Of a stretch of DNA of 64,000 nucleotides, positions 7,170 through 64,000 are shown piece by piece (position 1 is the first letter of the stretch; each line of letters begins with the position of its first letter). The position numbers and the translations under genes were made by a program. The stretch is from contig NZ_CP023540.1 of assembly GCF_003692615.1 (NCBI RefSeq), positions 744,001 to 808,000 on the forward strand, written 5' to 3'. The notes beneath the pieces were generated by a model, which made no database searches, was not told the origin of the DNA, and saw nothing but the letters and a program-made list of their open reading frames with translations. The stretch comes from Chryseobacterium sp. 6424 (GTDB lineage: Bacteria; Bacteroidota; Bacteroidia; Flavobacteriales; Weeksellaceae).

Positions 7170-7610
7170 ATGAAAAATTTAATTAAAACCTTAGCATTAA
7201 TATCTCTTTTAATTTTTAATTATTCATGCGCGCAAACCACGATGAAAAGTGTTGCTGATGCTAGAAACATAGAAATTAACAAAAAAGAATTTGTTGGCAA
7301 ACCTTTGAGTTACCTTGTGTCAAAAATGGATGTGGAAGTTAAATCTATAAAAGCTTTCCCGAATAAAAACGCAAATGAGGTTAACAGAATTACATTTAGA
7401 TATGTAACTAATTATGAATATAAAAAAACAAGCACTAAGGAAATAAAAGACAGGCCCACACAATTAACAATTGTATTTAATCAAAACTGGGAAATGTTTG
7501 GAGAAAGATGCATGACATCAAATTCAAAATGTGTAGAATGGACGAAAGAAGATGCAAAAAATCTTGGTGACCTGATTGTGTATGATATCTATGTATTAGG
7601 AAAAAATTAA
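7170..7610 (+). CDS. Small lipoprotein, possible partner of the JAMM-like lipoprotein
   Basis: A 146-residue protein starting at the ATG at 7170; an upstream in-frame TTG at 7155 would overlap the previous gene and precede an intact signal. The N-terminus MKNLIKTLALISLLIFNYSC is a lipoprotein signal with lipobox NYSC. The rest is Lys/Asn-rich and beta-prone and matches no family I recognise. It follows the JAMM-like lipoprotein by 11 nt in the same direction, so the two are probably co-transcribed; a cognate inhibitor or immunity role is possible but unproven. Confidence 0.65.
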   Translation: MKNLIKTLALISLLIFNYSCAQTTMKSVADARNIEINKKEFVGKPLSYLVSKMDVEVKSIKAFPNKNANEVNRITFRYVTNYEYKKTSTKEIKDRPTQLTIVFNQNWEMFGERCMTSNSKCVEWTKEDAKNLGDLIVYDIYVLGKN

Positions 7611-7649
7611 TGTCCTGCGTGAAGAATGTTCTATTTGTCAATTACCCAA

Positions 7650-8165
7650 ATGAAAAACCTCACCCTCGTCCTCGCCATCCTCCTTTGCTCTTTCGCAAGC
7701 CTCCACGCCCAAACCAAAGGCTTCTACGAAAACGTGCAGAAGAAAAACATCAATAAAGTTCTGGATGATCTCAATGCGTTTGCAGCTGCAGCAGATTATA
7801 AAAATTACTTCGATCTGTACGCGGAAGAATCTACATTCATCGGAACCGATGCCACCGAAGTCTGGAATAAAAAAGAGTTCATGGTTTGGGCAAAACCTTT
7901 TTTCGATAAAGGCAAAGCCTGGAATTTTACCTCGCTCAAAAGAAACATCACTTTCAGCAAAAACGGTACCTACGCCTGGTTCGATGAGATCCTCGATACG
8001 CAGATGAAGATCTGCCGCGGCTCCGGCGTCCTCGAAAAAATCGGCGGCGAATGGAAAATCCGTCAGTACGTTTTATCGGCCACCGTTCCGAATGACGTCA
8101 TCGATGAAGTCACCAAAATGAAAGCGCCGATCGAAGATCCGATCATTTCTAAATTAAAAAAATAA
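7650..8165 (+). CDS. SnoaL/NTF2-like secreted protein
   Basis: A 171-residue protein with signal peptide MKNLTLVLAILLCSFASLHAQ. The mature part begins with a helix, continues with YFDLYAEESTFIGTDATEVWNKKEF and ends in a beta-sheet (FSKNGTYAWFDEILDTQ, GEWKIRQYVLSATVP). This is the cone-shaped NTF2/SnoaL_3 fold used as a ligand-binding or unspecified enzymatic domain. An ATG at 7626 is in frame but would put eight residues before the signal, so 7650 is preferred. It lies 45 nt before the sugar transporter gene and may share its transcript. The substrate is unknown. Confidence 0.8.
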   Translation: MKNLTLVLAILLCSFASLHAQTKGFYENVQKKNINKVLDDLNAFAAAADYKNYFDLYAEESTFIGTDATEVWNKKEFMVWAKPFFDKGKAWNFTSLKRNITFSKNGTYAWFDEILDTQMKICRGSGVLEKIGGEWKIRQYVLSATVPNDVIDEVTKMKAPIEDPIISKLKK

Positions 8166-8210
8166 CCTCTCAAATACTTAAAAACTCCACCACTCAAATA
8201 CTAAAAAAGC

Positions 8211-9575
8211 ATGGCTAAAAAAATAAAACCAAACCTGCAACTCGCTCAGATCATCAACATGAGCATGGGTTTTCTCGGAATCCAGATGGCGTTTGGCCTG
8301 CAAAACGGTAACGCGAGCCGCATCCTGCAAAACTTAGGCGCCGACGTGCATCACCTTTCCTGGTTCTGGCTGGTCGCACCTTTCACGGGACTTATCGTGC
8401 AGCCGATCATCGGCCACATGGGCGATCACACGTGGTCAGAAAAATGGGGGCGGCGAAAACCGTACTTTCTGATTGGTGCTTTGCTTACCGCGGTCGGACT
8501 GGTGTTTTTGCCGAACTCGGCGTCGGTGGGCGTCTTTTTGGGCAGCGGCGTTTTGCTTTTCGCGGTACTTTTCCTTGCACTGATGGATGCGTCGATCAAT
8601 GTCGCGATGGAGCCTTTCCGCGCGCTGGTAGGCGATATGTTACCGAAAAGTCAGGGAACAGTTGGGTTTTCGGTTCAAACTATTTTAATCGGAATCGGTG
8701 CCGTAATCGGTTCAAATATGCCGGCCTGGCTCACAATGCTCGGCGTTTCGAACGTCGCGCCGGAAGGTTTTGTGCCCGATTCGGTGATCTATTCATTTTA
8801 CGTCGGTGCGGCGGTTTTACTTTTAACCATACTTTACACGATTTTCACTACGAAAGAATACTCACCGAAAGATTTCGCGGATTTTTCGGAGGAAGAACCA
8901 CATGAGGTCACACCACGGTTTTCGGATATTTTCAGGGATTTTGCCAATATTCCTCCATTAATGAAAAGTCTCGGCGTCGTGCAGTTTTTCTCATGGTTTG
9001 CGCTTTTCACGATGTGGGTTTACACAACAAGTTCCGTGGCAACGCACCATTTCGGGCTGTCTCCGGACGATGCAAAGTCAGAACAGTTCAACAACGCAGG
9101 AAACCTGGTGGGCGAACTTTTCGGTTATTACAACCTGTTTGCGATCGGTTTTGCGTTTCTGTTGATTCCGTTGGCCAATAAAATCGGCAAAAAACAGACG
9201 CATGCGCTCGCACTTTTTAGTGGTGGTATCGGACTTATTTCAATGTATTTCATCGAAAATACATCACTTCTTTGGATTCCAATGGTAGGAATCGGATTTG
9301 CATGGGCGAGTATTCTCGCGATGCCTTACGCCATGCTGATCAACGCCATCCCACTTAAAAAAATGGGCGTGTACATGGGTATTTTCAATTTCTTTATCGT
9401 GCTTCCGCAGATCGTGAACGGAATCATCGGCGGGCCGGTTGTGCACAGCATTTTCGGGAATTTTGCGATTGGTTATGTAGTTGCCGGTGGTGTCGCGATG
9501 ATCATCGCGGCAGGGATCTCGCTTACTTTGAAAGGTGTAGGTAAAGATGACGACGCTGAAATGGAAACCGTTTAG
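8211..9575 (+). CDS. MFS sugar transporter (maltose/SLC45-like)
   Basis: A 454-residue inner-membrane protein with about 12 hydrophobic segments. The motif GHMGDHTWSEKWGRRKPY (residues about 69-86) is the loop 2-3 signature of the SLC45/GPH-type sugar:cation symporters that in Flavobacteriia carry maltose or sucrose beside GH13/GH65/GH97 genes. The N-terminus (INMSMGFLGIQMAFGLQNGNASRI) also fits that group. Its place at the end of the starch locus suggests it takes up maltose or glucose released by the GH13 and GH97 enzymes. A terminator follows about 20 nt after the stop. Confidence 0.87.
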   Translation: MAKKIKPNLQLAQIINMSMGFLGIQMAFGLQNGNASRILQNLGADVHHLSWFWLVAPFTGLIVQPIIGHMGDHTWSEKWGRRKPYFLIGALLTAVGLVFLPNSASVGVFLGSGVLLFAVLFLALMDASINVAMEPFRALVGDMLPKSQGTVGFSVQTILIGIGAVIGSNMPAWLTMLGVSNVAPEGFVPDSVIYSFYVGAAVLLLTILYTIFTTKEYSPKDFADFSEEEPHEVTPRFSDIFRDFANIPPLMKSLGVVQFFSWFALFTMWVYTTSSVATHHFGLSPDDAKSEQFNNAGNLVGELFGYYNLFAIGFAFLLIPLANKIGKKQTHALALFSGGIGLISMYFIENTSLLWIPMVGIGFAWASILAMPYAMLINAIPLKKMGVYMGIFNFFIVLPQIVNGIIGGPVVHSIFGNFAIGYVVAGGVAMIIAAGISLTLKGVGKDDDAEMETV

Positions 9576-9595
9576 AATTTATATTTAAATATTCA

Positions 9596-9628
9596 AATCT
9601 GTCAGAATTTCCTGGCGGATTTTTTTTG
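9596..9628 (+). terminator. Terminator after the MFS transporter
   Basis: AATCTGTCAG pairs with CTGGCGGATT (two G-T wobbles) and a run of T follows. Confidence 0.75.
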
Positions 9629-9691
9629 TTTTAATATTTAAAGCTACATCCGAACTTATCCCATATCAATGTATTAGAATCTTCATTGTCT

Positions 9692-9699
9692 TAAATTTG
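9692..9699 (+). promoter_or_regulatory. Candidate -7 promoter box for the pirin gene
   Basis: TAAATTTG matches the Bacteroidota -7 consensus TAnnTTTG, 33 nt before the pirin ATG. I see no good -33 TTTG at the right distance. Confidence 0.45.
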
Positions 9700-9732
9700 T
9701 ACTATTAAATCTAAAATCTAAAATCTCTCAAA

Positions 9733-10446
9733 ATGAAAACAGTATATCATAAAGCCGACACAAGAGGTTTCGCCGATCATGGTTGGTTGAAATCTTATCA
9801 CAGTTTTAATTTCGCCAATCATTACGATCCCGAAAGAATGAATTTCGGCGCATTGCGAGTTTTAAACGACGATCAGGTTGCTTCCGGAAGGGGTTTTGGG
9901 AAACATCCGCACCGCGATATGGAGATCATTTCAATTCCGCTGGAAGGCGATCTGGAACATCAGGATTCAATGGGAACTTCGGCCGTAATCCGGAAGGGTG
10001 AAATTCAGGTCATGAGCGCTGGTACCGGTGTTCAGCACAGCGAATTCAACAGAAATAAAGATCAGCTTGTAAAATTTCTCCAGATTTGGGTGATTCCGAA
10101 TAAAATGAATGTCACGCCGCGTTACGACCAGATCAGTATTAAAGAAAACGAAAAACTTAATGATTTCCAGCAGATTCTTTCACCAAATCCCGATGATGAA
10201 GGCGTATGGATTCATCAGAATGCGTGGTTTAACTTAGCTAAATTTGATAAAGGAAACGCCAAGGAATACAAAATCCATCAAAATGGAAACGGCGTCTACG
10301 TTTTCGTGCTGGAAGGTTCAGCGAAAATCGGCGATCAAATTCTGGAAAGAAGAGACGGTTTTGGAATTTGGGAAACCGAAAGTTTTACATTAGAAGCACT
10401 TGGAGATTCGGAAATCCTGCTGATGGAAGTTCCGATGCAATTTTAA
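9733..10446 (+). CDS. Pirin family protein (bicupin)
   Basis: A 237-residue cytoplasmic protein of the YhaK/pirin type. The N-terminal cupin carries the metal-binding pattern FGKHPHRDMEI (His-x-His, residues about 55-65) and later VQHSEFN. The C-terminal cupin (GNGVYVFVLEGSAKIGDQ) lacks clear ligands, as is usual. Some pirins have quercetinase-like dioxygenase activity, others act as redox sensors; the substrate cannot be read from sequence. It appears monocistronic, with a -7 box upstream and a strong hairpin downstream. Confidence 0.92.
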   Translation: MKTVYHKADTRGFADHGWLKSYHSFNFANHYDPERMNFGALRVLNDDQVASGRGFGKHPHRDMEIISIPLEGDLEHQDSMGTSAVIRKGEIQVMSAGTGVQHSEFNRNKDQLVKFLQIWVIPNKMNVTPRYDQISIKENEKLNDFQQILSPNPDDEGVWIHQNAWFNLAKFDKGNAKEYKIHQNGNGVYVFVLEGSAKIGDQILERRDGFGIWETESFTLEALGDSEILLMEVPMQF

Positions 10447-10473
10447 ATAAAATAAACAGCCTATTTTACAAAA

Positions 10474-10508
10474 GAAAAGCGGATTTTCGTCCGCTTTTCC
10501 TGTTTTTT
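10474..10508. terminator. Hairpin terminator between the convergent pirin and DUF808 genes
   Basis: A perfect 10-bp stem, GAAAAGCGGA / TCCGCTTTTC, around TTTTCG, followed on the + strand by CTGTTTTTTT. It serves pirin and may also stop the minus-strand gene. Confidence 0.8.
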
Positions 10509-11425
10509 TAGTTCGTTGGTTTCTTAATCATTGCAAACAGTTTTTTGCCCAATGCAAATACAGGAATTGCGACTAATCCACCGATAATACCGGCTAAAGC
10601 TTCCCGCAAAAGTGAATTGAAGTTTGGCAAGAAATGATGGTGAATCCACTCAATATTGTGAACGAAAATGCCTCCCGCGACTAAAATCAGCGCAACTGTA
10701 CCCACAACCGCGAGCCCTTTGATTACCCAAGGCAGCGCGTTTACCAGAAAAGTTCCGAATGAAACCAGAAATCCTTTTTCGGTTTTCGATTTTTTGATGA
10801 GGCGCAAGCCGGCATCATCCATACGGACAATTAACGCCACAATTCCGTAAACACCTACTGTTGCGATGATCGCGACGATTGAAACGGTAACGATTTCGAC
10901 TAACATCGGATCAAATTGACTTTTCAGCGACTCATAACCCTGTTTGGCCGAGGCCAAAGCGATGATCACAATTTCCAACGAAAGAATGAAATCAGTCGTT
11001 ATCGCCGACTGAACCTTGGTTTTCTCGTTCTGTTCAGCGCTGATAGTACTCGCCGCTCTTTCTTCAATTACTTCGTGTCCTTTTTTCTTGCGGTGGAAAA
11101 GAAACTCGATGATTTTTTCGATGCCCTCATACGCAAGGTAGAAGCCTCCGGCTATTAGTATCAGCGTGATCGCAGGGGAATATAGCCATTCAAGCAAAAA
11201 AACCGCGGGCACGATGATGAGTTTGTTGATGAACGAACCTTTCATGATCTTCATCAGAACAGGAATTTCGCGCGACTCCAGGAAACCTGTAGCTTTTTCG
11301 GCGTTTACCGCCAGGTCGTCACCTAAGATTCCGGCCGTTTTTTGGGTTGCCATTTTTGCGGTGACTGCCACATCATCCATCAGCGCGGCAATATCATCCA
11401 AGATTGCAAAAAAGCCTGAAGCCAT
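10508..11425 (-). CDS. DUF808 family inner-membrane protein (YedI-like)
   Basis: A 305-residue membrane protein. The N-terminus MASGFFAILDDIAALMDDVA followed by KTAGILGDDLAVNAEKATGF is the signature of the DUF808/YedI family. Several hydrophobic segments follow (about 75-110, 145-165, 180-205, 235-260, 275-295). The function of the family is unknown; YedI in E. coli is a predicted inner-membrane protein. It stands alone, convergent with pirin and divergent from the purine cluster, behind a well-formed promoter at 11448-11477. Confidence 0.9.
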   Translation of the reverse strand: MASGFFAILDDIAALMDDVAVTAKMATQKTAGILGDDLAVNAEKATGFLESREIPVLMKIMKGSFINKLIIVPAVFLLEWLYSPAITLILIAGGFYLAYEGIEKIIEFLFHRKKKGHEVIEERAASTISAEQNEKTKVQSAITTDFILSLEIVIIALASAKQGYESLKSQFDPMLVEIVTVSIVAIIATVGVYGIVALIVRMDDAGLRLIKKSKTEKGFLVSFGTFLVNALPWVIKGLAVVGTVALILVAGGIFVHNIEWIHHHFLPNFNSLLREALAGIIGGLVAIPVFALGKKLFAMIKKPTN

Positions 11426-57242: not shown

Positions 57243-58259
57243 ATGACAATTCTTGTAACGGGTGGCCTTGGCTATATAGGTTCGCACACAGTGGTAGAAC
57301 TTTTAAAGAATGAGTTTGAAGTGGTGATTGTGGATGATCTTTCCAATTCGGAAAGATTTATCCTTCAAAATATAGAGAAAATTGCAGGTAAGAAACCGGC
57401 GTTTTTCCCTTTTGACCTGAAACGGAAGGAGTTGCTTACGCAGATTTTCGACGCGTACGAGATTGCAGGCTGCATTAATTTTGCCGCTTACAAAGCTGTA
57501 GGCGAAAGCCAGGAAAAACCGCTTGATTATTACGAAAACAATCTGTTTACCCTCATCAATATTCTACAGGAATTTAAAGTGCGAAATATCTCGAACTTTA
57601 TCTTCAGTTCGTCCTGCACGGTTTATGGCCAGGCTGATGAGATGCCGATTGATGAAAACACGCCACTGAAAACGCCGGAATCCTCTTATGGCAAAACCAA
57701 ACAGATGGGAGAGGAAATCCTGAAAGACTTCGCAACGGCTTATGGGCGTAGGGTGTCCCTGCTTCGCTATTTTAATCCGATAGGTGCGCACCCGAGCGCC
57801 TTGTTAGGCGAACTGCCCATCGGTATCCCGAATAATTTAGTTCCGTACGTTACACAGACAGCAGCCGGAATCCGCGAGAAACTCAATATTTGGGGCAACG
57901 ATTATCCTACTGAAGACGGTACCGCCATCCGGGATTATATTTATGTAGTTGATTTGGCGAAAGCCCACGTAAAAGCCTTACAGAAGCTAATAACGTCAAA
58001 TGAAGAAACCGTCATTGATATCTTCAATATCGGTACCGGGAAAGGATCATCCGTATTGGAAGTGGTAGAAGCCTACGAACGCGCTAACAATGTCAGCGTA
58101 CCCTACGAAATCTGCGAGCGGCGCCCCGGTGACATCACCATCGCATACGCCAATGCCGATAAAGCAGAACGGGAACTCGGTTGGAAGGCTGAAACATCCC
58201 TGGAAGAAGCACTCCGCACAACATGGGAATGGCAGAAATACTTGGAATCACGCCTTTAA
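57243..58259 (+). CDS. galE: UDP-glucose 4-epimerase
   Basis: A 338-residue extended SDR enzyme interconverting UDP-glucose and UDP-galactose. It has NAD-binding GGLGYIGSHT (7-16), VDDLSNS, FAAYKAVGESQ, the SSSCTVYG strand and Y149-G-K-T-K153 active site, then RYFNPIGAHPS and YIYVVDLAKAH. It is in an operon with the aminotransferase. The accessory region begins right after its stop codon. Confidence 0.95.
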   Translation: MTILVTGGLGYIGSHTVVELLKNEFEVVIVDDLSNSERFILQNIEKIAGKKPAFFPFDLKRKELLTQIFDAYEIAGCINFAAYKAVGESQEKPLDYYENNLFTLINILQEFKVRNISNFIFSSSCTVYGQADEMPIDENTPLKTPESSYGKTKQMGEEILKDFATAYGRRVSLLRYFNPIGAHPSALLGELPIGIPNNLVPYVTQTAAGIREKLNIWGNDYPTEDGTAIRDYIYVVDLAKAHVKALQKLITSNEETVIDIFNIGTGKGSSVLEVVEAYERANNVSVPYEICERRPGDITIAYANADKAERELGWKAETSLEEALRTTWEWQKYLESRL

Positions 58260-58291: not shown

Positions 58292-58312
58292 GGTACAACA
58301 TAGGTACAACAT
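58292..58312. repeat. Tandem direct repeat just after galE
   Basis: GGTACAACAT occurs twice, at 58292-58301 and 58303-58312, 32 nt after the galE stop, at the junction between core genes and the accessory region. A possible integration site, but no integrase is in the window. Confidence 0.5.
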
Positions 58313-58313
58313 T

Positions 58314-58871
58314 TTAAAAATTTTCAGTAAACAGGTAGATTCCCTGCTCGTGTTGTTTTGCCTGAAAATTTAAAGATTGATATTCAGTAAGCATCGAACA
58401 ATAATAAGAATGGCTGGCTTTTGCCCAGCCATTTGCTATTAGGAGCTCATTCAGACATTCCCCTGAAGGCAGAATAACATAGGCCAACTGGCGCAGCCAG
58501 AAGTCCAATTCGTTTTTCTTTTCGGTGAGGATTGTGATACGTGTTCCAGGTGGGCACACCTGGAGCACGTAACCTAAACTCTTCAGACCGAGTTCCAGTA
58601 AGAAAGCTGCAGGCAGGTGGCTTTTCGCTTCATCCTCGCGCATTTTCCGGCTCATGTGCACTTGCGGTGCATCGAGGCCGTAAAGTCGGATTTCTTTGCT
58701 TTCCTGACCGAATTCTTCTTTTGCGATAATGGTATCTCCATCCAGAACTCTTTCCACAATCCAATGCGTTTCGGTAATTATTCCCGGAATCTGGAAATAC
58801 TTTGCTGACGGATTTTCTGTTTTGCTGACGTTCATGGTAGTGTATTTTGGGTTAATTTCATTGTAATGCAT
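58314..58871 (-). CDS. Thermonuclease (SNase)-fold protein with altered catalytic position
   Basis: A 185-residue protein (172 if started at MNVSKTEN, 58835) with no clear signal peptide. The SNase fold is visible: VERVLDGDTIIAK, IRLYGLDAPQVHMS and DFWLRQLAYVILPSGECLNELLIANGWAKA. Compared with staphylococcal nuclease, R62 and D67 match R35 and D40 and the RQLAYV Arg matches R87, but the general base Glu43 is replaced by Q70. It may be a weak or inactive nuclease, or a nucleic-acid-binding relic. It is the first gene after the galE boundary, divergent from the 58.98 kb cassette. Confidence 0.82.
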   Translation of the reverse strand: MHYNEINPKYTTMNVSKTENPSAKYFQIPGIITETHWIVERVLDGDTIIAKEEFGQESKEIRLYGLDAPQVHMSRKMREDEAKSHLPAAFLLELGLKSLGYVLQVCPPGTRITILTEKKNELDFWLRQLAYVILPSGECLNELLIANGWAKASHSYYCSMLTEYQSLNFQAKQHEQGIYLFTENF

Positions 58872-58979: not shown

Positions 58980-59783
58980 ATGGCAAGACAAAAAGGTCTC
59001 ATGAAATACGTCGGAACCATAGGCGACGTTAGACATTTCAAAATCAAAGGGCAAAAAGGATTTTTTGCCGGCATGGTGGGCGGACCCACCGCAGAACAGG
59101 TTAAAACCGCTCCGGAGTTTGAGCGTACCCGCGAAAACATGAACGAGTTCGGTGGATGCGCCATTGCAGGAAAAGCGGTGCGAACCGCTCTTTCCCAGCT
59201 GATGGGGAAATTTACCGATACTCAGGTAACAGGCAGGTTAACTTCAATTATGAAGAAAATCAACCTGGAGGACGGAACGGAAGCCAGAGGTTACCGAAAG
59301 GTAGAGATCTCCACTCAGAGAAATTATCTGAATGGGTTTGAGTTCAACAAGAACCAATCGATCAACGGTGTTTTCAATGCTCCATATCAGGTGAATCATG
59401 ATCCTGCAAGAAATACTGCAGATTTCATTGTAGAAGAGTTCATACCAATCGAATTGATCGCTGCTCCTGCAGGTGCTTCGCACTTCCGTTTGCTCCATGC
59501 TTTGGCAGTGATCGCAGACTTTTCGTATAACCCGATAACCGGAACTTATGAACCGGACGACGCGGTGAACAATGAGCTGAGTGTAGTTGCCAGATCACCT
59601 TTTATCCCGCTTAATGAAAGTTATTCCGGTGATACCATTACGGCAGACTTGCCAGGTTTACCAACTCTGGACAATACCGTTTCTGTACTTCAGTGTATCG
59701 GAATTGAATTCTTCCAGGAAGTAAACGGAGTTTATTACCCTTTTGCTACCGGTAACTGTCTCAAAATCGAGGAAGTGTTTTAG
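58980..59783 (+). CDS. Conserved Bacteroidota accessory protein of unknown function
   Basis: A 267-residue protein without signal peptide. The start is taken at MARQKGLMKYVGTIGDVRHF (58980); a GTG at 58941 would add 13 residues. The N-terminal segment, with GGPTAEQVKTAPEFERTRENM and NEFGGCAIAGKAVRTAL, is a pattern I have seen in uncharacterised Bacteroidota proteins, often near DUF5675 genes, but no function is known to me. The rest is beta-rich with NITLED-like strands (SYSGDTITADLPGLPTL, VLQCIGIEFFQEVNGVYYP). It has its own terminator and heads a group with DUF5675 and two small membrane proteins. Confidence 0.75.
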   Translation: MARQKGLMKYVGTIGDVRHFKIKGQKGFFAGMVGGPTAEQVKTAPEFERTRENMNEFGGCAIAGKAVRTALSQLMGKFTDTQVTGRLTSIMKKINLEDGTEARGYRKVEISTQRNYLNGFEFNKNQSINGVFNAPYQVNHDPARNTADFIVEEFIPIELIAAPAGASHFRLLHALAVIADFSYNPITGTYEPDDAVNNELSVVARSPFIPLNESYSGDTITADLPGLPTLDNTVSVLQCIGIEFFQEVNGVYYPFATGNCLKIEEVF

Positions 59784-59799
59784 GATGTGATCATGAAAG

Positions 59800-59828
59800 G
59801 GCTTCCAGAAAATGGAAGCCTTTTTTTA
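59800..59828 (+). terminator. Terminator between the first cassette gene and the DUF5675 gene
   Basis: GGCTTCCA / TGGAAGCC perfect 8-bp stem, GAAAA loop, seven T. It rules out translation starts at 59787-59793 for the next gene. Confidence 0.9.
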
Positions 59829-59861
59829 TCACTCATTTCAAAAATCCAAATACAGAATTTT

Positions 59862-60314
59862 ATGAAAACAAAAATAGTAAGAGTAGCCCAGGGAAAACAA
59901 AGCACCCTTTCCCATCTTTATATTGACGGCATTTTTCAATGCTTCCTCCTGGAGGATAAAATCCGCCAGGTTAAGATTAAAAGCAGGACCGCGATCCCGG
60001 AGGGAAAATTTCAGCTTAAAATCAACACCACCGGTGGAATGAACAGAACGTATTCCCAGAAGTACGGACAAATGCATCAGGGCATGATTGAAATTGATGA
60101 TCTGCCGACTTTCGACCTGGTGTATATCCATACAGGAAACACGATCCAACACACAGCCGGTTGTCCGCTCGTCGGGTTAAGTTACATCATGAAGGACGGA
60201 GATTATCAGGTTCTGCAGAGCCGCGATGCATACCGGCAGGTTTATCCTAAACTTTTGGCGGCAGCCAAAAGCAAGGATAATCAGATTGAGATCCAGAACA
60301 ATTTTCAATTTTAA
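59862..60314 (+). CDS. DUF5675 family protein with L,D-transpeptidase-like His/Cys motif
   Basis: A 150-residue protein started at MKTKIVRVAQ (59862), because the longer frame would be translated through the preceding terminator. It shows the DUF5675 pattern: LYIDGIFQCFLLED, IPEGKFQLKI, TYSQKYGQMHQGMIEI and VYIHTGNTIQHTAGCPLVG. The last block places H90, H97 and C101 much as in the YkuD L,D-transpeptidase site (H...[ST]HGC), though the spacing is shorter. A peptidoglycan-active or other Cys-based activity is my inference. There is no signal peptide, so export would need help, perhaps from the two small membrane proteins that follow. Confidence 0.8.
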   Translation: MKTKIVRVAQGKQSTLSHLYIDGIFQCFLLEDKIRQVKIKSRTAIPEGKFQLKINTTGGMNRTYSQKYGQMHQGMIEIDDLPTFDLVYIHTGNTIQHTAGCPLVGLSYIMKDGDYQVLQSRDAYRQVYPKLLAAAKSKDNQIEIQNNFQF

Positions 60315-60326
60315 AACCGGAAAATC

Positions 60327-60590
60327 ATGGCTAATGAATTAACACTAAGCGTTCTGTTCGGTTTTATCAGCAGTGTTCTGCTGGGGATTGTGGCCTACTT
60401 TATCAAGCAGCTGCACACCGATTTCAAGAGTATGGAAAGAGATATGTCGGAAGTCAAGACCATGGCTCTAATTATCAAAACAGAATTCAGAACCTCTTAT
60501 GATATCCTCACTAAGAAAGTCGAATATCTGGAACAACGGATGAACAAATTAGAAATTAACCAAACAAAAAATCAGGATCATGAAAAATAG
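60327..60590 (+). CDS. Small membrane protein with coiled coil
   Basis: An 87-residue protein with one N-terminal membrane helix (LSVLFGFISSVLLGIVAYFI, about 6-25) followed by a continuous charged helix with heptads (FKSMERDMSEVKTMALII, KKVEYLEQRMNKLE). The plan resembles XhlA-like or spanin-like phage lysis proteins turned around, but there is no sequence-level match I can claim. It starts 12 nt after the DUF5675 gene, and its last 11 nt overlap the next gene. Confidence 0.75.
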   Translation: MANELTLSVLFGFISSVLLGIVAYFIKQLHTDFKSMERDMSEVKTMALIIKTEFRTSYDILTKKVEYLEQRMNKLEINQTKNQDHEK

Positions 60591-60870
60591 AAACATGAAT
60601 TTAGCAAGCAGAATGAGTTCACCCACTCCCAAGTGGTTTCGGATTGCCCGCAATATCGGACTGGGTTTGTCGGCGGTCGGCGGTGCCCTGGTGGCTGCAC
60701 CGGTGATTCTCCCTGCAGCTGTAATATCCATTGGAGGATATTTGCTTTTAGGCGGCACGATCATCAGCGCGGTGAGCCAGACAGCCGTGAGCTCAGAAGA
60801 GTATGGCGAAAAATCCGGAAAAATTCCCGGAAAAGCCCTGGAAGATCCAGCTGAAGAAGCTGTGAAATAG
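60580..60870 (+). CDS. Small holin-like membrane protein
   Basis: A 96-residue protein (91 if started at MNLASRM, 60595). A basic N-terminus (PTPKWFRIARNI) precedes about 40 hydrophobic residues in two segments (GLGLSAVGGALVAAPVILPA and VISIGGYLLLGGTIISAVSQ), then a polar tail (EEYGEKSGKIPGKALEDPAEE). Two closely spaced helices with charged ends look holin-like. It overlaps the upstream coiled-coil gene by 11 nt, so translation is probably coupled. A terminator follows at 60909. Confidence 0.75.
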   Translation: MKNRNMNLASRMSSPTPKWFRIARNIGLGLSAVGGALVAAPVILPAAVISIGGYLLLGGTIISAVSQTAVSSEEYGEKSGKIPGKALEDPAEEAVK

Positions 60871-60980: not shown

Positions 60981-61029
60981 GGGTGAAATAAGTATGACTC
61001 TTGTATGGGAAAAGGGTGAAATAAGTGGC
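60981..61029. repeat. Short direct repeat before the DUF6943 gene
   Basis: GGGTGAAATAAGT occurs at about 60981-60993 and again at about 61015-61027, 34 nt apart, in the gap between the cassette terminator and the DUF6943 terminator. Confidence 0.6.
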
Positions 61030-61068: not shown

Positions 61069-61494
61069 TCAGATGCTGTAGTAGTATTTCTGAATGAGTG
61101 CAGCGCGTAGCTGGCTGAGCAATCTGGACTGTTCTACTTGCTTCTGTTCCAGCTCGTGGATGGATTTGATTTTGTGGATCATTTCGGGATTACGGGTAGC
61201 TTTTTCGATGCCTGGCTGGATGAAGTTCTGCAGGAGTTTTTTCAGCTCGAAGAGCCGGAGCATTTCGATGACGCTGCCGCAGAGATAAGGGTGAAAGAAT
61301 CCGTTTTTCCAGAGGGAGTAAAAGGTCCAGTAAACGGTTTCGAGTTCTTCCTGGTTGCCACAGTAGATGATGAAGCAGTTCGGGCAAGGTTCACGCAAAG
61401 GTTTTCCGGCATTGTGGCCACGATTCAGAATAAAAACAGCCGTTTCCGGGGCTGGGCGGTGGACTGCGTAAGTCCGTACTTTGTTGGTAAGCAT
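61069..61494 (-). CDS. DUF6943 family protein
   Basis: A 141-residue protein started at MLTNKVRTYAVHR (61494); the frame stays open to 61638, but the extra 48 residues are low-complexity read-through of poly-purine DNA. The motif RGHNAGKPLREPCPNCFII followed by ETVYWTFYSLWKNGFFHPYLCGSVIEMLR is what I know as DUF6943, seen in accessory and conjugative-element regions of Bacteroidota. The Cys pair (PCPNC) may bind metal. A C-terminal helix (HELEQKQVEQSRLLSQL) follows. Function unknown. It has its own terminator. Confidence 0.8.
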   Translation of the reverse strand: MLTNKVRTYAVHRPAPETAVFILNRGHNAGKPLREPCPNCFIIYCGNQEELETVYWTFYSLWKNGFFHPYLCGSVIEMLRLFELKKLLQNFIQPGIEKATRNPEMIHKIKSIHELEQKQVEQSRLLSQLRAALIQKYYYSI

Positions 61495-61597
61495 AACTTT
61501 TGTTTTAAAAAATTTGCTCTTCTGAATACTATTCAAAAGAAAAAAAGAAAAAAAAGAAAGTGCTCTACCCTTCGGGAGGAAAAATGCGATGCAATAT

Positions 61598-61653
61598 TTT
61601 TTTGCAAAAAAGATTGCCGTATCATTTTTCACGGCCATCTTTTTTGCAAAAAA
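61598..61653. repeat. Long inverted repeat with 17-bp perfect arms
   Basis: TTTTTTGCAAAAAAGAT (61598-61614) and its exact reverse complement (61637-61653) extend inward, after a 2-nt mismatch, by CCGT/ACGG around a 10-nt loop. T runs lie at the outer ends on both strands, so it could act as a bidirectional terminator. Confidence 0.85.
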
Positions 61654-61820
61654 CCCGGCAGGGCAAGATATTGTCAGGGCATTTTTCCGACGGTATACCT
61701 TTACTTTCTTTTTTTTTATTTTTTCTTATCCGGGTTTATCGATTGGTGCAGTAGGAGTTTTGTTTATTATAAAACTCAGGGAATTCGAAGCGGTATTTTA
61801 CTAAATCCCTTCAGCGGAGG

Positions 61821-61879
61821 GAAAGACAGCGGTATGGCGATGCGAGGGCTCGCAGCAGCGGCATACTGCTGTGCGCGGT
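61821..61879 (+). repeat. Hairpin repeat family, copy A
   Basis: Constant left arm ACAGCGGTATG (61826-61836) pairs with constant right arm CATACTGCTGT, which continues GCGCGGT (61862-61879). The 25-nt interior contains its own TGCGAG/CTCGCA hairpin. Confidence 0.75.
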
Positions 61880-61944
61880 ACCGATAGTGAATAAACTGCC
61901 ACTACACTATTCCGCTGAAACCAGGCAGTTTATTGACTAGCGGT
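61880..61944. repeat. Inverted repeat with 21-nt arms next to copy A
   Basis: Positions 61880-61900 and 61924-61944 pair over 21 nt with two mismatches (core AATAAACTGCC / GGCAGTTTATT), around a 23-nt loop. Confidence 0.75.
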
Positions 61945-62123
61945 ACAGGCAAAATTGTTATAAATGCCTTATGATTAAATAATTTTTCGGTTATTCGATT
62001 AGGGAATGATTTGCTTGTATAACCGACTTTCAAGGGATGGAAAGGGGATGGAAAAATCAGCTGTATGACGTTGCAAGTTCAGAAACGACCGGCATGATTC
62101 CATGGACAGGATTGGCTGAATAT

Positions 62124-62153
62124 TGTTCTTATTTAAATTTTCTGTATTTTTAA
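62124..62153 (+). promoter_or_regulatory. Promoter of the secreted orphan gene
   Basis: TTG (62124-62126), a 19-nt spacer, then TATTTTTA (62146-62153), one mismatch from TAnnTTTG, 15 nt before the ATG. Confidence 0.5.
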
Positions 62154-62168
62154 AGAAAAACATTTGAA

Positions 62169-62702
62169 ATGAAAAAAATTTTACTATTAACTGCCCTCTT
62201 TGTTTTTAATTTTGGGTTTTCACAGAAGCCTCTGACTAGTAGTTTGGAAAATCTTGATCAGAAATTTCTAAAAAAATTTCACATTAAAAAAGATGTATTC
62301 GATAACAAAACTGTTATTTACGAGAAGAAATCGTACGGACAAAACATCCGTATAAAACCGTACCTTGTTATAAAAGATGGGCTGGTATTTTACAGGGTGG
62401 GATTAATGTTTGATGGTTATTCGGAATGGCCGGATATGCACACCTTCAAGTTTCTTATTGATGATCAAGTATATAATCTACCGCTAGGAGAAACTCGTAA
62501 GAAAATAAGCCATCAAATTACAGCCGTAGAGACTTCTAATTTATTACTTAACGATGAAGAAATAGAAATCTTCCGAAAAGTAGGATCTGCAAAAACGCCG
62601 GTACAATACAGGATTAGCGGGAATAAGAATACGGATCTGAAGTTATATGTAAATAGTTATATAAAAATAACGAAAGAGTTATACGATATGCTTACTAAAT
62701 GA
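62169..62702 (+). CDS. Secreted orphan protein
   Basis: A 177-residue protein with signal peptide MKKILLLTALFVFNFGFSQ and a Lys-rich, beta-prone mature part (KPYLVIKDGLVFYRVGLMFDGYSEWPDM, KFLIDDQVYNLPLGETRKK). It resembles no family I can name. Its base use is more A+T-rich than that of the core genes. It has its own promoter and terminator and sits alone between hairpin repeat copies A and B, like a single-gene cassette. Confidence 0.75.
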   Translation: MKKILLLTALFVFNFGFSQKPLTSSLENLDQKFLKKFHIKKDVFDNKTVIYEKKSYGQNIRIKPYLVIKDGLVFYRVGLMFDGYSEWPDMHTFKFLIDDQVYNLPLGETRKKISHQITAVETSNLLLNDEEIEIFRKVGSAKTPVQYRISGNKNTDLKLYVNSYIKITKELYDMLTK

Positions 62703-62723
62703 AAATATATAGCGCGACAGTTT

Positions 62724-62752
62724 AAGCCACTCATTTTACAGTGGCTTTTTTG
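62724..62752 (+). terminator. Terminator after the secreted orphan gene
   Basis: AAGCCACT / AGTGGCTT perfect 8-bp stem, 8-nt loop, then TTTTTG. Confidence 0.88.
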
Positions 62753-62865
62753 TTTCCTGAAAGTATTGCTCGTAGCTAAACTTCATAAACATTATAGAAT
62801 ATATTTATGCACCATGGTAGATATTTGGGTGAAGAGCGGAATATCAGCGCGGTGGAGAGGGATGG

Positions 62866-62946
62866 AAAAAACAGCGGTATGACGGTGTGCCGGAGCCAAA
62901 ATAAAATAGAAAAATCCCGGTATACCGGCATACTGCTGTGCGCGGT
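62866..62946 (+). repeat. Hairpin repeat family, copy B
   Basis: Left arm ACAGCGGTATG (62871-62881), right arm CATACTGCTGTGCGCGGT (62929-62946). The 47-nt interior differs from copy A but still pairs: GGTGTGCCGG with CCGGTATACC, using two G-T pairs. The right interior arm is part of the palindrome CCGGTATACCGG (62917-62928). Confidence 0.78.
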
Positions 62947-62955
62947 GACGGAAGC

Positions 62956-63078
62956 GTATAGTTGGCTGTAACGGAACGGCCGGGGACGTCCGTGAAGTGA
63001 AAGCCGGCTATGTGCTGGAGGAACTTGGGAAAGCGATTGGCTACCATTTTAGCGGATTTCGAATAGTATAGTTGGCTG
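62956..63078. repeat. Direct repeat GTATAGTTGGCTG
   Basis: 13-bp identical copies at 62956-62968 and 63066-63078. The second lies inside the 3' end of the HTH gene. Confidence 0.6.
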
Positions 63079-63373
63079 CCATCGTTTCAATTTCATCTTT
63101 TGTTGTTTGCCTGTACTTCTTTAACCAGTCATCAATATCTTTTTTTACGAAATAGATTCTTTTGCTTCGTTTAGTAAATGGGATCTCATTCTGTGAAGTT
63201 AATTTATAAACGTGGGAAGCAGAGAGTTCCAAGTAAGAACATAATTCTTTTAATGTCAGAATTTCTTTGTTAAAATGGGCATTTGTCATCGCTGCTTCGG
63301 TAGGAACTAAACTTACCAGAAGCTTTTCAATTCTGTCCAGTCTTTCAATGATTGATTCAAATGGATTTTCCAT
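63041..63373 (-). CDS. Excisionase-type helix-turn-helix DNA-binding protein
   Basis: A 110-residue protein. Residues about 35-90 form the MerR/excisionase-like winged helix: ILTLKELCSYLELSASHVYKLTSQNEIPFTKRSKRIYFVKKDIDDWL, in which the turn (SASHVYKLT) recognises DNA and KRIYFVKKDIDDWL is the wing. A short helix before it (FESIIERLDRIEKLLVSLV) may dimerise. Such proteins accompany mobilisable and conjugative elements of Bacteroidota, where they regulate excision. It has a good promoter (63405-63435) and is flanked by repeat R2. Confidence 0.88.
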   Translation of the reverse strand: MENPFESIIERLDRIEKLLVSLVPTEAAMTNAHFNKEILTLKELCSYLELSASHVYKLTSQNEIPFTKRSKRIYFVKKDIDDWLKKYRQTTKDEIETMAANYTIRNPLKW

Positions 63374-63404
63374 AACATGTTGATTTAATGGGTTATTACT
63401 CTCG

Positions 63405-63435
63405 CAAAATTATAAAAAGAGCCTAAAAAATCAAA
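63405..63435 (-). promoter_or_regulatory. Promoter of the HTH gene
   Basis: Minus strand TTTG (63432-63435), a 19-nt spacer, TAATTTTG (63405-63412): an exact -33/-7 pair 31 nt before the start codon. Confidence 0.7.
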
Positions 63436-63525
63436 CTTATACTGTAAGCGGTTGCTGCCTATGTCCTGGAGGAATATGGGAAAGCTTCGGCAACTCCATT
63501 GCGATAAAGAAGTACTAAAGGAGCT

Positions 63526-63641
63526 GGAAAGACAGCGGTATGGAGGGCAATGGAAAAAATGCGTGATGGTGCTGGAGGGGGGCAAAGGGAAAGCGATGGC
63601 TTACGCATTTTTTTGTTGCCCAGAATACTGCTGTGCGCGGT
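63526..63641 (+). repeat. Hairpin repeat family, copy C
   Basis: Left arm ACAGCGGTATG (63532-63542), right arm ATACTGCTGTGCGCGGT (63625-63641). The 82-nt interior forms a long extension: GGGCAA with TTGCCC and AAAAAATGCGT with ACGCATTTTTT, around a loop holding an R2 unit. Confidence 0.78.
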
Positions 63642-64000
63642 GCTGAAGTGCATAGCCTGTTGACTTACCTGTATTTTCAGAAACTGAATTTGGTACAGGC
63701 TGTGGACTGCAGGCACTTGGCTATTTTAGAACCGTACTTTCCGGGTAGCGCAGTGGATTGGGAAAATAGACTTCTAAATTATAACTATCCTGGCGGCTGG
63801 AAGGCGGTGGCTTGTGTGGGCTTCGCACAGACAAAAGGAAAGCATTTAGCATAATTTTCAATTATAGGTGATAATGGTGCTGGTTTGCACGTAACGCAGC
63901 GGAGCGGAGTGGAGGGCAACGGTTTGCGATGGCAAATTGACTATAATTGCAATTATGTTATTTGCTGTGGCAGAGTGGGGATTTTAAGCCGAATACTGGC

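Follow-up and report, generated by a model that had tools for sequence, protein, structure and literature searches.

A putative folded Xer-type attachment region, built of hairpins and paired dif-like arms, at one end of a genomic island in Chryseobacterium sp. 6424

The window analysed here, a stretch of 64,000 nt from Chryseobacterium sp. 6424 (contig NZ_CP023540.1, positions 744,001 to 808,000 of the forward strand), carried near its right edge a block of three long hairpins, A, B and C, followed by a pair of sites in inverted orientation that resemble the chromosomal dif. Coordinates are those of the window unless given as genome positions; G000 is the label for the window's own genome (2.59 Mb), other G labels are genomes of relatives, and L labels are loci. 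With their constant tails, the first hairpins (H1) of slots A, B and C lay at 61826–61879, 62871–62946 and 63532–63641, respectively. The left constant end ACAGCGGTATG opened each unit (61826, 62871 and 63532) and the right constant end ATACTGCTGTGCGCGGT closed it (61879, 62946 and 63641), always on the + strand, in agreement with a preliminary description made from the sequence, which had listed three copies with constant ends in a single orientation. Of the interior lengths given there (25, 47 and 82 nt), the last was confirmed and a recount gave 26 and 48 nt for the first two. A second hairpin (H2), absent from that description, followed the constant tail, most clearly behind A (61878–61946, +, an inverted repeat with 91% complementarity) and, as read from the sequence with approximate ends, behind C (63642–63717, +). 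A T-rich tract, which precedes the first hairpin in most related arrays, was found at 61700–61729 (+). About 300 nt after C, and likewise not remarked on earlier, was a twin site (63839–63971, +) formed by the inverted dif-like arms TTTAGCATAATTTTCAATTATAGG and GACTATAATTGCAATTATGTTATTT, able to pair with each other (left arm 63840–63869, right arm about 63938–63971). The block lay at the left end of an island spanning positions 802,224–839,111 of G000, an end that falls inside the 3' end of an epimerase gene.

Windows of 151–231 nt for A, B and C folded far more stably than their dinucleotide shuffles (z = −5.7, −5.6 and −5.5), compared with z values of −0.1, 0.0 and −2.5 for three control windows, bearing out the earlier claim that the interiors are self-folding. 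A whole-genome search for the right end, allowing up to two mismatches, returned the three exact copies in A, B and C and one degenerate copy at 228,533 bp, with no match for the reversed control; beyond these, the genome contained no close copy of the right end. A dispersed repeat of the repetitive extragenic palindrome or miniature inverted-repeat transposable element (REP/MITE) type, with no role in the island, would account for palindromic units in intergenic DNA, yet it is scarcely credible for three close copies in 2.59 Mb that all lie at one locus, beside one relic, and whose order and linkage to the twin site are kept. The degenerate unit (loci L004/L007, G000:228,533 onwards) adjoined a metal-efflux operon and is likely what remains of an earlier island in this genome. 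An Rfam scan of the window at the gathering cut-off detected three tRNAs only and left the hairpins unmatched, and a DNA search of plasmid and phage collections with 61780–63990 gave no match.

Pairing was counted on 48 units. Of an initial 75, twelve were set aside because they were judged to be fortuitous hits to coding sequence in unrelated taxa, and among the remaining 63 only those of 48, 70, 104 or 163 nt were kept. Pairs predicted from both strands comprised 810 Watson–Crick, 25 G-T, 5 A-C and 25 other combinations, and the predicted fold was more stable on the + strand in 42 of the 48 units. In slot B, 11 of 21 pairs had changed on both sides, and the covariation score (0.274, against 0.136 for shuffled alignments) was reached by none of 500 shuffles. 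These results agree with the proposal that structure is kept, here on one strand, with G-T pairs. The hairpin pairing is maintained on the + strand, which would fit either single-stranded DNA or RNA of that strand.

The 15-nt hairpin core was present in 21 of 320 Weeksellaceae genomes, a count that includes one genome (G128) without a hairpin array; among the matches listed, the named relatives carrying it were Kaistella, Chryseobacterium and Epilithonimonas. Length classes kept their order across species, with slot A at 48 nt (12 unique units), B at 70 nt (21 units), C at 103–106 nt and D at 162–163 nt. As described earlier, one gene lay between A and B in the window and one between B and C. 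The first (62169–62702, +) encodes 177 aa with no family match and belongs to an insert of 814 nt relative to G270; the second (63041–63373, −) encodes an HTH_17/excisionase-type protein of 110 aa within an insert of 451 nt relative to the same genome. In the G000–G270 comparison, duplications of about 30 and about 39 nt accompanied the A–B and B–C inserts, the former in the shape of a truncated B-like hairpin remnant at 62050–62097 (+) on the left side of the insert. A different gene family, F13 (lipoprotein-like, from reading), occupied the slot after B in four other loci. Across 22 arrays, only 8 of 33 inter-hairpin gaps held a gene insert (>400 nt), a figure in which 2 of the 33 gaps derive from mis-parsed units (L164 and L177); A, B and C were mostly adjacent, and the largest insert inside the hairpin block was 4.6 kb.

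The constant ends, the paired interiors, the genes between the G000 copies, the B-like remnant and the duplications flanking both inserts would all suit an array of integron-like cassettes in which the hairpins act as attC analogues, each serving one gene. The expectation of one gene per hairpin unit failed, however, as most gaps are free of genes, the inserts vary in place and size, and the A/B/C order is kept between species. The integron integrase family TIGR02249 was found over its cut-off in none of the 36 genomes of the genus. The core site of integrons is RYYYAAC/GTTRRRY, and its absence, stated in the preliminary description, agrees with inspection of the constant arms by eye, made without a pattern scan. 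An integron array was rejected on the 8 filled gaps of 33, the conserved slots and the 0 of 36 genomes with the integrase, and is very improbable. By their order and lengths, A, B and C are orthologous conserved slots and not one-gene cassettes, and the genes between them probably arrived as later insertions.

A twin dif-like site occurred within 2 kb downstream in 21 of the 22 hairpin arrays. In G000 the covariance model matched positions 807839–807971 with an E-value of 6e-28, this sequence being itself part of the model. The host dif, CCTATAATTTATATTATGTTAA, was a single copy in each of the eight genomes searched and lay at position 1,325,485 of G000, 51% of the way along the chromosome; the twin arms share both of its half-sites. 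Of 37 right-arm sites, 31 had an inverted partner. In an alignment of 29 sequences, 95% of the cells were paired, six pairs had changed on both sides, and none of 500 shuffles reached the covariation score; sliding the alignment by one to three columns abolished the pairing, and the pair counts included 28 G-T and one A-C. Alignment A3 and model R1 leave out one misaligned locus, L301. The model detected the twin site in 67 of 320 genomes of the family and 12 of 33 genera (E-values up to 0.01), which would make it a ready marker for such islands, and among 395 genomes of the order all 16 with twin matches belonged to the Weeksellaceae. The twin site was named in none of the open-access paper titles listed (at most 20 for each query).

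One of the readings offered in the preliminary description was that the hairpins are recombination sites. A site of recombination type does adjoin the block, but it lies about 300 nt beyond C, and the paired dif-like site, not the hairpins, is the likely recombination site, judging from sequence. In three islands of two relatives (G263 and G274), the site or its right half recurred in direct orientation beyond the cargo. One island of G263 had copies at 750,050 and 758,423 around metal-efflux cargo, and a second had copies at 1,008,702 and 1,005,666, the far one being a nearly whole, degenerate twin; the copies in G274 were at 64,172 and 94,456. G271 and G274 shared 510 bp at 97.8% identity from the centre of the far-side site rightwards, whereas a comparison with 58 kb of G274 gave no match to the left of it, so that homology between the two genomes breaks inside the site. 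Candidate dif-bounded modules number three brackets; in two of these the far side carries a half-site, and none was seen in G000. A tail loosely common to the near and far copies around cargo modules, TTGCTGTGGCAGAGTGGGGAT, lay at 63962–63982 (+) in the window.

The island begins at a direct repeat, attL (TGGGAATGGCAGAAATACTTGGA, 58224–58246, +), within the 3' end of the epimerase gene. The partner repeat, which differs by one letter, lies beyond the window at genome positions 839,089–839,111, beside a TonB-type gene. Just inside the left end, GTACAACATAGGTACAACA (58293–58311, +) is a putative arm-type repeat with a similar repeat inside the right end. In G000, 36.9 kb separated the epimerase gene from this TonB-type gene (both named from reading); in G257 the distance was 24 kb and the cargo between them was different, and in G256, G272 and G274 the two genes were direct neighbours, as an empty site. 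A tyrosine integrase open reading frame (837,641–838,858, PF00589 match) stood at the far, right end, together with a primase/VirE-type gene (named from reading) and small helix-turn-helix genes. Judged by its direct repeats, empty sites and integrase, the region is an integrase-driven genomic island. This upholds the view of the region as gene-variable mobile DNA; a look for an integrase next to the arrays had been proposed, and a tyrosine integrase is present, but at the opposite end of the island.

Between attL and the hairpins were six genes: F0, encoding an SNase-like nuclease (58314–58871, −; PF00565, E 1.8e-5); F1, a 267-aa protein (58980–59783, +) for which Pfam, NCBIfam and PHROGs gave no match at the thresholds applied; F2, a DUF5675 protein (59793–60314, +; PF18925, E 5e-30); F3, an 87-aa protein (60327–60590, +) with weak matches to phage families without assigned function; F4, a 96-aa protein (60580–60870, +); and F5, a DUF6943 protein (61069–61638, −; PF22105, E 1e-45). 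Repeats of GGGTGAAATAAGT between F4 and F5 (60981–61026 and relatives), spaced by 33 nt in the window, had an iteron-like look. Relatives of F1, many at 26–40% identity, were found in 31 of 36 genomes of the genus, with up to seven per genome. The AlphaFold2 model of F1 was poor (mean predicted local distance difference test score, pLDDT, of 61; seven sequences) and had no PDB match at E 0.001, so nothing is claimed on its fold. F1 was 100% identical in G000, G256 and G285, yet the epimerases of G256 and G285 were only 90% identical to that of G000, indicating that the module moves between species. Between the block and the right end, the island carried DprA-like, XseA-like, helicase, type I restriction and ATPase genes (several named from reading).

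Twenty further loci were hand-picked from the covariance-model matches. Seven had F1/F5 and cargo like the G000 island and three were ambiguous. In the other ten, the twin adjoined a CHC2-primase-like gene and a pair of neighbouring tyrosine recombinase genes, mostly at Rhs-like genes (Rhs and CHC2 being names from reading of translations), and six of these ten had two or three twin copies in the stretch read. These recombinase-linked elements (L331–L335, L344–L346, L348 and L350; also L283, G257:1470000-1489900) carried a helix-turn-helix gene as well and were often in tandem, with three copies in L331 at intervals of about 7.2 kb and four in G099. Such elements appear to mobilise Rhs tip and immunity genes. 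Cargo islands would thereby be linked, through one site, to elements that bring their own pair of recombinases.

The reading favoured here, with a probability of about 0.58, is that the hairpin block represents a structured, folded attachment region of Xer type, placed at the left end of the integrase-bearing island, where gene modules would dock. The + strand would become single during transfer, rolling-circle replication or lagging-strand replication, and the two dif-like arms would then fold on it into one Xer-type site, as in attP(+) of the phage CTXphi. This folded site could be joined to a circular cargo module or to an existing site by the XerC/XerD of the host or by the two recombinases that related elements carry, so that modules for metal efflux, SOS functions and restriction or defence would stack beside the block. 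The H1 and H2 hairpins may serve as accessory structures that organise the region, or may protect and prime the single strand. In the terms of the preliminary description, which had offered recombination sites of a cassette array or a structured RNA or retroelement repeat family, the cassette array falls on the slot and integrase evidence, the RNA is retained as a rival discussed below, and what gains support is a mobile island with an adjoining site of recombination type.

Several observations weigh against this attachment-region reading. The TonB-type gene of the right flank was 52% identical between G000 and G256 (75–100% in the other four genomes). The island site is not at the chromosomal dif, and the reversed control of the dif search also gave zero to one match per genome. 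The far copy was sometimes the right half only (the first G263 island and G274), and a single copy of the site was found in G000, whose cargo is therefore without a visible far-side partner. Excision or integration at the dif-like site was seen in no experiment, reads or same-species strain pair. The twin window folded modestly (z = −2.0), below one gene control (−2.5). L301, a contig of a viral collection (16.8 kb of 51.7 kb), carried, within 7379–10890, F0, F1, F5 and a similar twin site with no match to the hairpin pattern; four of its non-coding windows were no more stable than shuffles, which suggests that the hairpins are not needed for the site. Finally, one-strand covariation suits RNA as well as it suits single-stranded DNA.

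That last point leads to the possibility that the island makes a single long, structured non-coding RNA covering A through the twin and acting in regulation, as antisense or as a nucleoprotein scaffold, with the twin as its 3' end and as a favoured integration point of other elements, in the way that the 3' ends of tRNA and tmRNA genes are favoured integration points. The G-T pairs on one strand, the very stable + folds, the ordered and length-conserved slots and the T-rich tract ahead of A would all be expected of such a transcript. Rfam returned no match to it at the gathering cut-off, though, genes of up to 4.6 kb inserted in 8 of 33 gaps would disrupt the fold of a long transcript, and the closeness of the twin arms to the host dif is not predicted by an RNA. 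This explanation is considered unlikely.

A further alternative, which overlaps with the attachment-region reading in its odds as well as its content, is that the hairpins are parts of a single-strand origin of replication, transfer or packaging, of the kind used by single-stranded DNA phages or in mobilisation, and that the twin serves integration only. The folded + strand and the primase/VirE-type gene near the integrase would fit such an origin, as would the matches of F2 and F3 to phage families, and single-stranded DNA phages of Flavobacterium carry dif sites according to the part of the source consulted (PMC9719478). Neither a relaxase nor a rolling-circle Rep was noticed in the island, where family searches covered part of the genes, and the origin is regarded as a possible but minority explanation.

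Spacings within the block showed a preference for steps of 11 nt, in counts that share ancestry and for a modulus picked after the fact. Distances of 125, 180 and 994 nt between A and B, 137, 588 and 1138 nt between B and C, and 163 and 1417 nt between B and D differ between species largely by multiples of 11; for the block spacings, 15 of 30 pairwise differences were such multiples (2.7 expected). The gap between the twin arms in islands was 62, 73, 84, 95 or 106 nt in 26 of 34 loci (58–106 nt overall), and 9 of 16 gaps fitted the series among the island loci numbered L302 or later. The 23 recombinase-linked sites had no such series of gaps, though 66 and 74 nt were common. In the 800 nt leading up to the site, length changes, once collapsed, were multiples of 11 in 62 of 256 cases against 23.3 expected, and the best-fitting period was 11.00; in the next 700 nt the figure was 2 of 34. 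With distinct sizes only, the count was 24 of 154 (14.0 expected), that of the 24 later loci alone 13 of 86 (7.8 expected), and that of the recombinase-linked sites 21 of 149 (13.5 expected). From F1 to the twin the pattern was weak (42 of 351 over 28 loci, 31.9 expected), yet 16 of 17 loci of one set fell on residues 0–3. Further upstream there was also an excess (77 of 141), part of which comes from repeated counting of a single 11-nt step that separates F1 from F2; the F1–F2 (16 of 17 loci on one residue) and F3–F5 (17 of 66 pairs, 6 expected) intervals also looked stepped. Multiples of 11 were not found in the intervals from the T-rich tract to A or B or in the 4.5-kb inserts of G281 and G286, and they made up 18 of 190 distinct-length pairs from F5 to the first hairpin (17.3 expected) and 1 of 21 from F0 to F1. 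A 22-nt repeat like CCTTCGACAGGCTCAGGGACC, seen inside otherwise conserved hairpins and in spacers or twin gaps (e.g., L014, L045 and L121), accounts for some of the 22-nt steps.

If its inserts obey a length rule, the block would, to our knowledge, be the first gene-acquiring DNA element of that kind, although no search for another was made; the paramyxovirus rule of six is a comparable length rule. Since DNA in negatively supercoiled bacterial domains has 11 bp per turn, as the part of PMC8501960 consulted puts it, helical phasing is the plain reading for the short spacings, but it does not explain gene-sized steps of 11 nt. It is a doubtful suggestion, offered tentatively, that the block works as a single register-locked machine, its parts aligned along the same side of a helix with 11 bp in each turn, or spaced along a protein filament whose footprint is 11 nt, so that mainly register-keeping inserts survive.

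The block resembles several known systems in part. In integron attC sites, single-strand folding and not sequence keeps function, and interiors are variable; here, too, folding of one strand is kept while interiors vary, but no integron integrase over the cut-off, no core site and no one-gene-per-site order were seen. Tyrosine-integrase islands and integrative mobilisable elements of Bacteroidota have a terminal integrase, attL and attR at the 3' end of a gene, and variable defence and metal cargo. The present island is like them in its integrase at one end, its att repeats and its defence and metal cargo, and unlike them in having a second, Xer-type site inside, beside a hairpin array. In Acinetobacter, dif (pdif) modules and chromosomal dif-module islands consist of modules bounded by dif-like sites, as far as the consulted part of PMC12907356 describes them. 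Stacked dif-bounded gene modules in islands, with host XerC/XerD presumed to act, would be common to both if the three candidate brackets are such modules; compared with that description, the copies here are direct, partly conserved as halves, tied to a structured block and found in another phylum.

The closest likeness in the folding of the site is with CTXphi of Vibrio cholerae, in whose attP(+) two inversely oriented dif-like sites 90 bp apart pair within one strand (PMC4246890, in the part consulted). Here the inverted dif-like sites are about 60–110 nt apart, with predicted pairing of the + strand into one Xer-type site, and the arms resemble the host dif; a XerC/XerD dependence of the CTXphi type is predicted. 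The block was filed neither as a CTXphi attP(+) nor as a dif-module island because it is not at dif and its Xer dependence is only predicted. It differs from attP(+) in being carried in an integrase-bearing island away from dif, with hairpin units before the site and cargo modules after it, and filamentous-phage genes were not recognised. If the attachment-region reading is true, a folded attachment site like that of CTXphi is present in many islands of the Weeksellaceae, which gain defence, metal-resistance and repair modules through the enzymes of chromosome resolution, where integrons would use their own integrase, and single-strand recombination becomes testable outside vibrios and integrons.

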